Origin: a virus | DNA length: 21,044 nucleotides | Virus record (IMG/VR): IMGVR_UViG_3300037586_001357 | Span: 1 to 21,044 of that record | Direction: 5' to 3' (one strand) | Part shown: one piece after another, positions 19,188 through 20,955 of the stretch | Numbering within the stretch: the stretch's first letter is position 1 | Layout of the letters: each line of letters begins with the position of its first letter | Position numbers and translations under genes: made by a program | The notes under the pieces: model-generated | What the model was told of the DNA's origin: nothing | Database searches by the model: none | Seen by the model: the letters and a program-made list of their open reading frames with translations, nothing else

Positions 19188-19873
19188 GCGGCGTTAGATC
19201 CTGTAATGATTTTAATTACATTGGACTTACGGTCGGCGTGGATTTCCTCAAAGTTGTTGGGTTGATTATTTTTAAGTTCAGCCCAGTGTGCTTTGTTTAG
19301 TTGTGACCAGATGCGTTTGCATTGTGGTACATTTTTAATGGATGGAATGATATGTCCAGTCCAGTATAAAGTTTCTGTTAGAGGGATTTGGGATTTGAAT
19401 CCGTAGTCCTTAGCAGCAGGGCAATCGCCGTGTGGTACTTTATAGATGAAGCCGGGACAGTCATTACGATTGTCCATATTCTGATGTGCTACACCCATAC
19501 GACAGCCTTGTGCTTCCATAGCATTGAAGCGTTTGTATAGGGTTTTAGCGTGATAGAAATGGGCAGTATAGTTTTTCATATTGATGAAGCAGATTAAATC
19601 TATCTCGTCAATGTTAGTGTACCATTGAGGTCGTTTAGATTTCTGATCGTCTTGATAGATTTCAAATACGAAATCGCTATAGCCTACTTGGTTCCAGTCT
19701 AATGCCTTGACTTCTATATTCATAGTGCGTCCAGTTTTCATTAGTGATGTAAGGTCGTAGGGAAAGATACGGTAGTCCATTTTTTGTGTTGGCATTCCGT
19801 GTTCTTCAAATGCTAGGCGTACTGCCTGCTCTGTCCATTCTGCTTTGATTAGATCGGTGTTGAAATTTTGCAT
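19184..19873 (-). CDS. Probable PD-(D/E)XK-type nuclease with Cys/His cluster
   Basis: This 229-aa protein starts at the ATG on the minus strand at 19873. AAAGGAG (minus strand, about 19885-19891) lies 11 nt ahead of it. An in-frame ATG at 19915 overlaps the upstream gene and has no ribosome site, so it is rejected. Residues D40 (FPYD) and E54-V-K56 (NIEVKA) form the D-Xn-E-x-K pattern of PD-(D/E)XK nucleases, preceded by a helix with E24/E25. A Cys/His group follows (C124, H130, C139, H148, C151) that could bind zinc. It is second in a leftward two-gene unit. Possible roles are DNA processing, host DNA degradation or recombination. The superfamily call rests on one short motif and is moderate. 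Confidence 0.5.
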   Translation of the reverse strand: MQNFNTDLIKAEWTEQAVRLAFEEHGMPTQKMDYRIFPYDLTSLMKTGRTMNIEVKALDWNQVGYSDFVFEIYQDDQKSKRPQWYTNIDEIDLICFINMKNYTAHFYHAKTLYKRFNAMEAQGCRMGVAHQNMDNRNDCPGFIYKVPHGDCPAAKDYGFKSQIPLTETLYWTGHIIPSIKNVPQCKRIWSQLNKAHWAELKNNQPNNFEEIHADRKSNVIKIITGSNAA

Positions 19874-19904
19874 AGTAGTTTTATCTCCTTTGATAATGTT
19901 AGTG

Positions 19905-20564
19905 TTATGCAGCATCAGATACTACAGGTGTAGGTGCCGATGCCTTCAAGGTAAGTCCCTTGAATTTGTGGATTAGTTTCCGTTTATGACTGTGAAAGGT
20001 TTGGCGTGTTACGACCTTGCCCGGATAGTTGAGAACATATTTGTAATGTTCATCGTATACGATATCATCCAGTCCAGTCATTGACCGGAAGATAAAGCGT
20101 TCTCGTTCTGTTGCGTGATATTCGCAGAAGTCAGAGATTAGTTGATAGATAGACTTGTTTGTCATTAGTTCCTCCATATTATCTATTGTACTATAAGTTA
20201 GACTATTTGTAAAATCTTTTAGTTTATATTGTAATGTTCGCTTATACCTTTTGGATTGTTTGCGAAGTTTGTATGAATACCAGTCCCTGAATATCTTGAT
20301 AGATAATGGTTTGAATTGTTCAAGGGGTAGGTCTATAAATTTAGTTAGTGCTCGTTGTTCCTCCGAATAGAAAGCGGCTGAGGTAGAAAGAATAGATCGT
20401 TCTAATTTAGATGATGGATTCCAGACACGACAGGTATCCCTAAAGTATTCAGCCTTCTTGACTTGATGTGTCATACAGAGAAGAGCGTGAAAGTATGAGG
20501 CGATGCCGTTGCGGTCAGTTAATAAGAAATGTATCTTATCGTCGGGTAGTAGTTTCTGTTGCAT
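19905..20564 (-). CDS. Basic DNA-binding protein with sigma region 4/LuxR-like C-terminal HTH (putative)
   Basis: This 219-aa protein starts at minus-strand ATG 20564, with AGGA at about 20575-20578. It is Lys/Arg-rich (RKQSKRYKRTLQYKLKD, residues about 101-117). Residues about 150-203 read HATERERFIFRSM..., then VTRQTFHSHKRKLIHKFKGL. This resembles the 'S-E-R-E-R-x-V/I-x' and 'V-S-x-x-T-V/F-x-x-H-x-x-K-I-x-x-K-L' pattern of sigma region 4 and LuxR-type helix-turn-helices. No region 2 is recognisable. A regulator of phage transcription, perhaps acting at the paired 1256/20885 promoters, is a hypothesis. It is the first gene of the leftward unit, 31 nt ahead of the nuclease start. It could also be a plain DNA-binding protein with chance similarity. 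Confidence 0.45.
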   Translation of the reverse strand: MQQKLLPDDKIHFLLTDRNGIASYFHALLCMTHQVKKAEYFRDTCRVWNPSSKLERSILSTSAAFYSEEQRALTKFIDLPLEQFKPLSIKIFRDWYSYKLRKQSKRYKRTLQYKLKDFTNSLTYSTIDNMEELMTNKSIYQLISDFCEYHATERERFIFRSMTGLDDIVYDEHYKYVLNYPGKVVTRQTFHSHKRKLIHKFKGLTLKASAPTPVVSDAA

Positions 20565-20598
20565 TGGTAGTAGTTCCTATGTTTTGTACTGTATATAT

Positions 20599-20627
20599 AG
20601 TATACCATATTATTAGTAGATTGTAAA
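20599..20627 (-). promoter_or_regulatory. Sigma70-like promoter of the leftward two-gene unit
   Basis: On the minus strand, TTTACA (20627-20622), a 17-nt spacer and TATACT (20604-20599) are followed by a short leader of about 28 nt to ATG 20564. The -10 box is preceded by TGG, an extended -10 feature. This is close to consensus, so the host RNA polymerase should read it early. Confidence 0.8.
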
Positions 20628-20709
20628 GTATTATTTTTATTTTTGTTATTATTTATTGTACTATAGTAAATAGGTATGTACAAGAGAAAAAGACAATTTA
20701 ATTTGAAAT
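20628..20709. other. AT-rich spacer with TTGTAC/GTACAA half-sites
   Basis: This is very AT-rich sequence between the leftward promoter and the small RNA terminator. It holds the inverted pair TTGTAC (20656-20661) and GTACAA (20678-20683), separated by 16 nt. A third TTGTAC lies at 20584-20589, just beyond the leftward transcription start. It might be an operator. No gene is seen. Confidence 0.3.
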
Positions 20710-20760
20710 AAAAAAAGAAAGTCCCCGACCCTGAAACTACTACATAAAAGGGAAGGGGAC
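20710..20760 (-). terminator. Intrinsic terminator of the candidate small RNA
   Basis: On the minus strand, GUCCCC (20760-20755) pairs with GGGGAC (20726-20721). An inner CCCU/AGGG helix closes a 16-nt loop, with a 2x2 mismatch between the helices. The stem is followed by TTTCTTTTTTT (20720-20710). On the plus strand no T-run follows, so it is directional. Confidence 0.8.
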
Positions 20761-20814
20761 CGAGAACTTGTCCGAGCCAAAGGAGATTATGGCTCTTCAG
20801 TATGGACTGATCTC
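20710..20814 (-). ncRNA. Candidate small regulatory RNA with anti-Shine-Dalgarno loop
   Basis: A minus-strand RNA of about 105 nt is predicted from a promoter (20821-20849) and an intrinsic terminator (20710-20760). From the expected first base (G, 20814) the sequence folds into one long interrupted stem: GAGA/UCUC (20814-20811 with 20765-20762), GUCC/GGAC (20807-20804 with 20773-20770) and GAGCCA/UGGCUC (20795-20790 with 20779-20774). An 8-nt bulge interrupts one side. The apical 10-nt loop reads UAAUCUCCUU, which looks like the anti-Shine-Dalgarno end of 16S rRNA. AUCUCCUUUG can pair with CAAAGGAGAU at the nuclease gene's ribosome site (about 19883-19892, minus strand). No known family is recognised. 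Transcription, folding and targets are inferences from sequence. Confidence 0.55.
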
Positions 20815-20820
20815 TATAAT

Positions 20821-20849
20821 AGTATACATTGTAAAATGAAAGTTTTCAA
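20821..20849 (-). promoter_or_regulatory. Sigma70-like promoter of the candidate small RNA
   Basis: On the minus strand, TTGAAA (20849-20844), exactly 17 nt, then TATACT (20826-20821). The expected start is G at 20814, which is also where the predicted RNA stem begins. The octamer TTTACAAT, found at the -35 of three other promoters here, occurs in the spacer (20835-20828). Confidence 0.7.
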
Positions 20850-20884: not shown

Positions 20885-20922
20885 TTTACAATTTTCTCGC
20901 TAAAGCAGTTAGTATAAATGTA
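20885..20922 (+). promoter_or_regulatory. Rightward promoter (copy 2 of the two-copy promoter)
   Basis: TTTACA (20885-20890), a 19-nt spacer and TAGTAT (20910-20915), with CTAAAGCAGTTAGTAT at 20900-20915 identical to copy 1. It lies directly downstream of an A-rich tract and about 75 nt ahead of the gene at 20991. It diverges from the small RNA and the leftward unit. Confidence 0.72.
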
Positions 20923-20939
20923 GGTACAAAATTGGTAAG

Positions 20940-20955
20940 CAGACGACCATAGGAG
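20940..20955 (+). repeat. Conserved leader element (copy 2)
   Basis: CAGACGACCATA (20940-20951) is identical to 1303-1314 and runs into AGGAG (20951-20955). The nearest ATG (20957) is too close to that site and gives only an 8-codon frame, so the element probably acts on the longer leader of the 20991 gene. Confidence 0.55.

Follow-up and report, generated by a model that had tools for sequence, protein, structure and literature searches.

A candidate phage small RNA with loops complementary to the start regions of an adjacent two-gene operon

The virus record IMGVR_UViG_3300037586_001357 carries on its minus strand a candidate small RNA of about 109 nt, the terminator loop of which is complementary to the start region of the first gene of an adjacent two-gene operon, and the reading towards which we lean, if only slightly, is that of a trans-acting small RNA repressing the translation of this operon. 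In the proposed mechanism, a promoter (P1) would give rise to a free-standing RNA, ended by an intrinsic terminator, just upstream of the operon, the mRNA of which would be transcribed separately from a second promoter (P2). The RNA would then act in trans on the operon mRNA by loop-to-single-strand pairing, with its terminator loop contacting one or the other of two tandem sites, placed on both sides of the gene 1 start codon, and a second loop, CUCCUUU, contacting the Shine-Dalgarno (SD) sequence of gene 2, which would block ribosome loading and thereby delay or limit the operon. The evidence, all of it drawn from sequence comparison and prediction, is good for the RNA and moderate for its target.

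The window, i.e. the whole stretch of DNA that was analysed (21,044 nt), is the entire 21-kb virus record, which is not backed by a fuller genome. Its plus strand contains the genes of head, adaptor (SU10_adaptor), and virion proteins, and at its right end two minus-strand genes, gene 1 and gene 2, oppose the rest of the genome. A search of IMG/VR with gene 1 returned three contigs with the same layout (L002, L003, and L004), in which the gene 1 protein is 95-97% identical, as well as L005, which has only the C-terminal 86 residues of gene 1 as a separate ORF. Both genes oppose all others in L002 and L003 as well, where they separate the structural genes from the opposite, terminase-side operon. 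The window and L002-L004 share ~86% identity across 447 nt; these three contigs form one lineage, and the comparison with the window is one of two independent lineages only. Exact loop and terminator patterns recovered the same three contigs only from IMG/VR. DNA and protein searches of a phage collection with the RNA, gene 1, and gene 2 gave no match, a search of genome contigs for gene 1 gave no relative, and phage contigs of the same group reached via terminase or neighbouring genes (L015, L024, and L040) end before the locus or are without the cassette.

The features of the candidate RNA and its promoter are the following:

20844..20849, minus strand: -35 box TTGAAA of the sRNA promoter P1 (TTGATC in L002-L004)
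20821..20826, minus strand: -10 box TATACT of P1 (TATAAT in relatives)
20706..20814, minus strand: candidate small RNA, ~109 nt, with predicted ends, based on fold z, the L002 fold, and compensatory changes
20762..20814, minus strand: hairpin 1, with three nested stems, GAGA/UCUC, GUCC/GGAC, and GAGCCA/UGGCUC
20780..20789, minus strand: apical loop UAAUCUCCUU of hairpin 1 (loop 1), with CUCCUUU retained in relatives, complementary to the gene 2 SD
20720..20761, minus strand: terminator hairpin GGUCCCC...GGGGACU (GGACCCC...GGGGUCU in relatives)
20733..20743, minus strand: terminator-loop seed GUAGUAGUUUC, invariant across the relatives and complementary to the start region of gene 1
20706..20719, minus strand: U-rich terminator tail, retained in relatives

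A preceding reading of the letters of the window, referred to here as the sequence-only reading, had described a compact minus-strand sRNA gene with TTGAAA-17-TATACT, a purine start at 20814, a stem beginning at that first base, and a terminator with a T-run, and this anatomy was borne out in every part. A G is found at 20814, hairpin 1 begins at that base and exposes the apical loop, and a second hairpin with a U-rich tail follows; its stem GGUCCCC/GGGGACU is succeeded by UUUCUUUUUUUAUUU. In the relatives, P1 is present at the same place as TTGATC-17-TATAAT, with a perfect TATAAT; since promoter-like sites are no commoner across the window than in shuffled sequence (8 vs 6.0), the credibility of P1 rests mainly on this conservation. 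When folded, as that reading had advised, the RNA (20814-20706) reaches -36.1 kcal/mol, compared to -24.4 +/- 3.1 kcal/mol for dinucleotide shuffles (z -3.8), and the same two-hairpin fold is obtained for L002 (z -3.3). A stock terminator scan reports none at the sRNA end because it permits loops of 8 nt at most. The impression that no known RNA family is represented was likewise upheld, in that an Rfam search with the RNA, at the gathering threshold and at E up to 10, returned nothing credible. Two hallmarks of trans-acting base-pairing sRNAs, an own promoter and an intrinsic terminator, are present in sequence and conservation, with their activity, and with it the transcription of the RNA, being predicted.

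The promoter and both hairpins are retained in all three relatives, and the hairpins of the window and the relatives were aligned by hand, with 24 shared base pairs being picked from the folds by the author. Five bases are changed within these pairs, none of the pairs is broken, and two are compensated on both sides, so that the conserved structure with compensatory changes that is typical of trans-acting base-pairing sRNAs is seen here at 2 of 24 pairs and in two lineages only. The changes include U-A to A-U in the terminator and A-U to G-C and G-C to G-U in the outer stem of the relatives. With five changes scattered randomly, all pairs stay intact in 0.08% of trials and two double changes occur in addition in 0.02% (~2e-4), values that are indicative only because there are two lineages and the list of pairs was chosen by the author. 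The loop core CUCCUUU is kept in the relatives, and the terminator loop UUUUAUGUAGUAGUUUC, including the seed, is unchanged in all of them, whereas the 5' half has otherwise diverged. Both the compensatory changes and the loop conservation for which the sequence-only reading had looked to relatives are thus found.

The operon downstream of the RNA and the sites within it are arranged as follows:

20599..20627, minus strand: promoter P2, TTTACA-17-TATACT with TG, for the two-gene operon, conserved in relatives
20567..20577, minus strand: target site 1, GGAACUACUAC, between the gene 1 SD and ATG, with 10 Watson-Crick pairs and one G-U
19905..20564, minus strand: gene 1, 219-aa ORF, first gene of the operon, of no established family, the proposed main target
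20546..20556, minus strand: target site 2, GAAACUACUAC, at gene 1 codons 3-6, with 11 Watson-Crick pairs (10 in relatives)
19873..19892, minus strand: CAAAGGAGAUAAAACUACUA, the start region of gene 2, with 10 nt of complementarity to loop 1 and 9 nt to the terminator loop
19184..19873, minus strand: gene 2, 229-aa ORF, likely start MQNFNTD, SD AAAGGAG

The complement of the seed is present twice at the start of gene 1, in the form of two AACUACUAC sites that flank the start codon, and AAACUACUA, a 9-nt version of the terminator-loop complement, overlaps the start of gene 2; the match to gene 1 had been absent from the sequence-only reading. Ranked by duplex energy with the terminator loop, gene 1 is the top start region both in the window (-14.5 kcal/mol, 16 regions) and in L003 (-14.0 kcal/mol, 33 regions), with gene 2 being third in both, and the observed values are reached by shuffled terminator loops in 7 and 6 of 2000 trials. 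None of 2000 dinucleotide shuffles of the RNA produced an 11-nt exact complement to gene 1. Net of opening both partners, the two gene 1 sites retain -9.3 and -11.9 kcal/mol in the window and -9.1 and -9.3 kcal/mol in L002, and the RNA thus displays a conserved, accessible seed that is complementary to a target start region, as trans-acting base-pairing sRNAs do, with the conservation of seed and target resting on two independent lineages only. These figures have to be read with the repetitive nature of the target in mind (ACUACUAC), which makes chance matches more frequent, and several non-start sites in the genomes pair with the terminator loop equally well or better. Co-folding of the RNA and its target with nested structures only gave no interaction, the method being unable to represent loop pairing.

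An RNA with a promoter and terminator of its own, a neighbouring operon that likewise has its own promoter, and loops complementary to the starts of that operon together suggest a trans repressor working at short range, and we infer repression rather than activation because the sites lie over the start codon. The same layout can be read differently, namely as a 5' leader with partial termination (an attenuator) of the gene 1-gene 2 mRNA, in which the hairpins would be present in cis on transcripts reading through from P1, with the terminator loop folding back on the gene 1 start. This is possible, if unlikely: the RNA does precede the operon, which is on its strand, and a read-through transcript would contain both loop and target, but a second conserved promoter, P2, is placed between the terminator and gene 1, inspection revealed no alternative antiterminator pairing that is kept in both lineages, and no leader family was matched in Rfam.

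The trans-acting reading assigns the second contact to loop 1, for which gene 2 is the best start region in the window (-13.8, first of 16) and which differs in step with the gene 2 SD between the lineages (AUCUCCUU/AAGGAGAU and UUCUCCUU/AAGGAGAA). A 10-nt complement to gene 2 arises in 27 of 2000 dinucleotide shuffles of the RNA, and opening loop 1 for the 10-nt pairing costs ~6 kcal/mol in the window, where the pairing with gene 2 amounts to -3.3 net of opening. In L003, loop 1 pairs best with the start region of a 144-aa gene in the opposite operon, and gene 2 is one of several that tie; L004 carries in place of gene 2 a different gene, which lacks the site. Loop 1 is ranked as a secondary contact because other strong SDs do better in L003 and because its opening is costly in the window, and such a contact is probably what it is. 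The sequence-only reading had started from the likeness of this loop to the 3' end of 16S rRNA; CUCCUU is indeed shared, but taken alone the resemblance is weak evidence because CUCCUU is a frequent 6-mer (the window has 11 copies of AAGGAG vs 14 expected). Its proposal that ribosome binding would be blocked on selected mRNAs finds partial support, but the best-supported pairing is that of the terminator loop, with CUCCUU coming second and being less specific.

Were the CUCCUUU loop to act alone, the RNA would be a general anti-SD RNA, pairing with many phage or host SDs and lowering their translation, which we consider rather unlikely. The retention of CUCCUUU in both lineages, the strong SDs that pair with the loop (in the window that of gene 2, in L003 those of the 144-aa and 101-aa genes), and the RNAs with exposed anti-SD or C-rich loops that are known in other bacteria are all consistent with it; its specificity, however, is poor and shifts between lineages, the opening cost given above burdens it in the window, and it is the terminator loop that has the stronger match, one both conserved and specific.

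It is decidedly unlikely that the locus consists of a strong terminator with a spurious promoter, or that CUCCUU is the reverse complement of the ribosome-binding site of a tiny plus-strand ORF (AAGGAG..ATGGCT, MALQYGLISIIVYIVK). The window carries AAGGAGATTATGGCT on its plus strand, and when a looser hairpin pattern, AGCCAT-N(0-6)-CTCCTTTGGCT, was run against IMG/VR (100 stretches, 97 matches examined), the matches were mostly gene starts in reverse, with 65 of the 97 having the 6-nt spacing of a normal SD-ATG, so that CTCCTT next to a GCC/GGC stem is often no more than that; the pattern gave no new relative, its matches beyond the known contigs looking like opposite-strand gene starts or chance. 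At the locus itself, by contrast, the SD-ATG spacing is 3 nt in the window and 1 nt in the relatives, a distance insufficient for initiation, and the relatives do not keep the ORF (MALQYGLISIIVYIVK vs MANPYGRPLIYYTL), on which two grounds the plus-strand mini-ORF was rejected. No upstream minus-strand gene needs a terminator here, and the compensatory changes in hairpin 1 favour a minus-strand RNA.

The 9-mer AACTACTAC is present in four copies in the window (0.25 expected), three of them at the sRNA/operon locus and within 200 bp, an enrichment that counts for the proposed pairing but would also befit DNA operators or sites of an RNA-binding protein, with the terminator loop having acquired one by inversion. 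We regard this as quite improbable, since the operon copies (two at gene 1 and the 9-nt version at gene 2) are in sense orientation at start codons and the RNA copy is antisense and in a loop, an arrangement that pairing requires and operators do not. A ribosome decoy, as also raised by the sequence-only reading, in which the loop would mimic 16S rRNA and titrate ribosomes, is highly improbable because the loop, for all that CUCCUU is common to it and the 16S 3' end, has 16S polarity, and an RNA with the 16S 3'-end sequence pairs with mRNA SDs, not with the ribosome's own anti-SD.

As to the proteins of the operon, residues 83-125 of gene 1 (PLSIKIFRDW...LKDFTNSLTY) bear a sub-threshold resemblance to ProQ/FinO (PF04352: E 0.025, 15.0 bits, cut-off 27), and gene 1 also weakly matches phrog_7125 (E 0.0023), the function of which is unknown. 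Gene 1 was tried as a ProQ/FinO chaperone and rejected, with an hhalign probability of 6%, 20 of 2000 shuffles scoring higher, and G37, R80, and G85 (E. coli ProQ numbering), invariant in the family alignment, being missing. The resemblance is tempting but unproven; should gene 1 nevertheless prove to be a divergent relative of ProQ/FinO, the fuller cassette picture given below would have the RNA regulate its own chaperone as well. Gene 2 resembles PD-(D/E)XK nucleases by motif alone (D..EVK, seen by eye), a profile search gave only NOV_C (E 0.11), and the protein may be a nuclease. AlphaFold models of gene 1 (pLDDT 40) and gene 2 (pLDDT 33) were built from too few sequences and are too poor to use. 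What the regulation would be for is a guess, namely the timing or delay of two proteins, possibly a nuclease and its partner. An in-frame start, GGAGGAACTAATG, lies inside gene 1 at residue 134 (window 20165, minus strand), and in L005:6010-6270 exactly the C-terminal 86-aa part of gene 1 is a gene of its own (93% identical), in a phage with a DNA polymerase III alpha gene; gene 1 may yield two proteins.

Among known systems, the c4 RNA of phages P1/P7 comes closest, in which translation is blocked by short stretches of complementarity, presumably located in loops, that pair around a ribosome-binding site of the neighbouring operon (PMC12197685). The candidate RNA resembles c4 (Rfam RF01695) in being a short phage RNA that adjoins its targets and has loops complementary to the start region of the adjacent operon. 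c4 is processed out of the transcript that also contains its target, and it serves immunity, whereas here promoter and terminator look independent, P2 lies between the RNA and gene 1, and the seed is in the terminator loop; unlike in the c4 setting, no lysogeny genes were seen, and the RF01695 covariance model gave no match at the gathering threshold or up to E 10. By analogy, the candidate RNA would work most like c4, of which family it is not a member. In its use of a terminator loop it recalls FinP/traJ (with FinO) of F-like plasmids (review: PMC9977716), where there are likewise two stem-loops, the second a terminator, with loops that pair with the mRNA start region. FinP, however, is antisense to its target over its full length and depends on the FinO chaperone, whereas the complementarity here spans only 9-11 nt and gene 1 has only the sub-threshold ProQ/FinO match, and on this comparison the candidate RNA is not a member of that group either. 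P22 sar RNA and lambda OOP RNA, too, are small phage RNAs, which dampen translation of a phage gene beside them; each is an antisense transcript of its target, whereas the candidate RNA lies upstream and shares the strand of its target. Staphylococcal UCCC-loop sRNAs (RsaE type) and alphaproteobacterial anti-SD loop RNAs (cuckoo/CcsR type) cover SD sites with anti-SD or C-rich hairpin loops. They differ in sequence and structure, are chromosomal, and have several targets, and in the candidate RNA the anti-SD loop appears secondary to the terminator-loop seed.

This appears to be a new RNA with a known mode of action. To our knowledge, small RNAs of phages known only from environmental sequence have almost never been described, because those phages cannot be grown. 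If the trans-acting reading is true, a phage can time a two-gene operon by an RNA whose terminator loop is its seed, a layout that would be missed by screens limited to 5' seeds or full antisense overlap; the fuller picture of a self-contained cassette, in which one sRNA would silence both operon genes with one loop each and with the terminator loop doubling as seed, is put forward with considerable doubt. As its target, its seed, and the two tandem sites are all specified, the proposal is testable by reporters in a laboratory strain, without the phage.

Several observations concern the surroundings of the cassette. L004 has the RNA and gene 1 and then switches directly to L005-like sequence (L005:6270-6552); judging by this junction, its gene 2 has been exchanged and the switch point after gene 1 is a recombination joint. 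The related phage L040 is without genes 1 and 2 and has at the same place (L040:1-713, minus strand) ~700 nt in which no ORF is convincing; this stretch includes a TTTACA-17-TATACT promoter, a strong terminator, and several predicted hairpins, has no Rfam match, and reaches a fold z of only -1.9. Between the terminase and the cassette, L002 encodes a protein with a sigma-70 region 4 domain (L002:2899-3357, minus strand; Pfam E 9e-9), a candidate reader of a promoter element that is repeated in these genomes. This ~70-bp element, CTTTACAATTTnnnnGCTAAAGCAGTTAGTAT...TAAACAGACGACCATA, occurs twice per genome, in the window at 1250-1320 and 20885-20950 (both plus strand) and in the L003 contig near 5720-5790 and 16260-16330, one copy preceding the adaptor gene just past a terminator and the other being divergent to the sRNA, and it is probably a phage-specific promoter plus leader.
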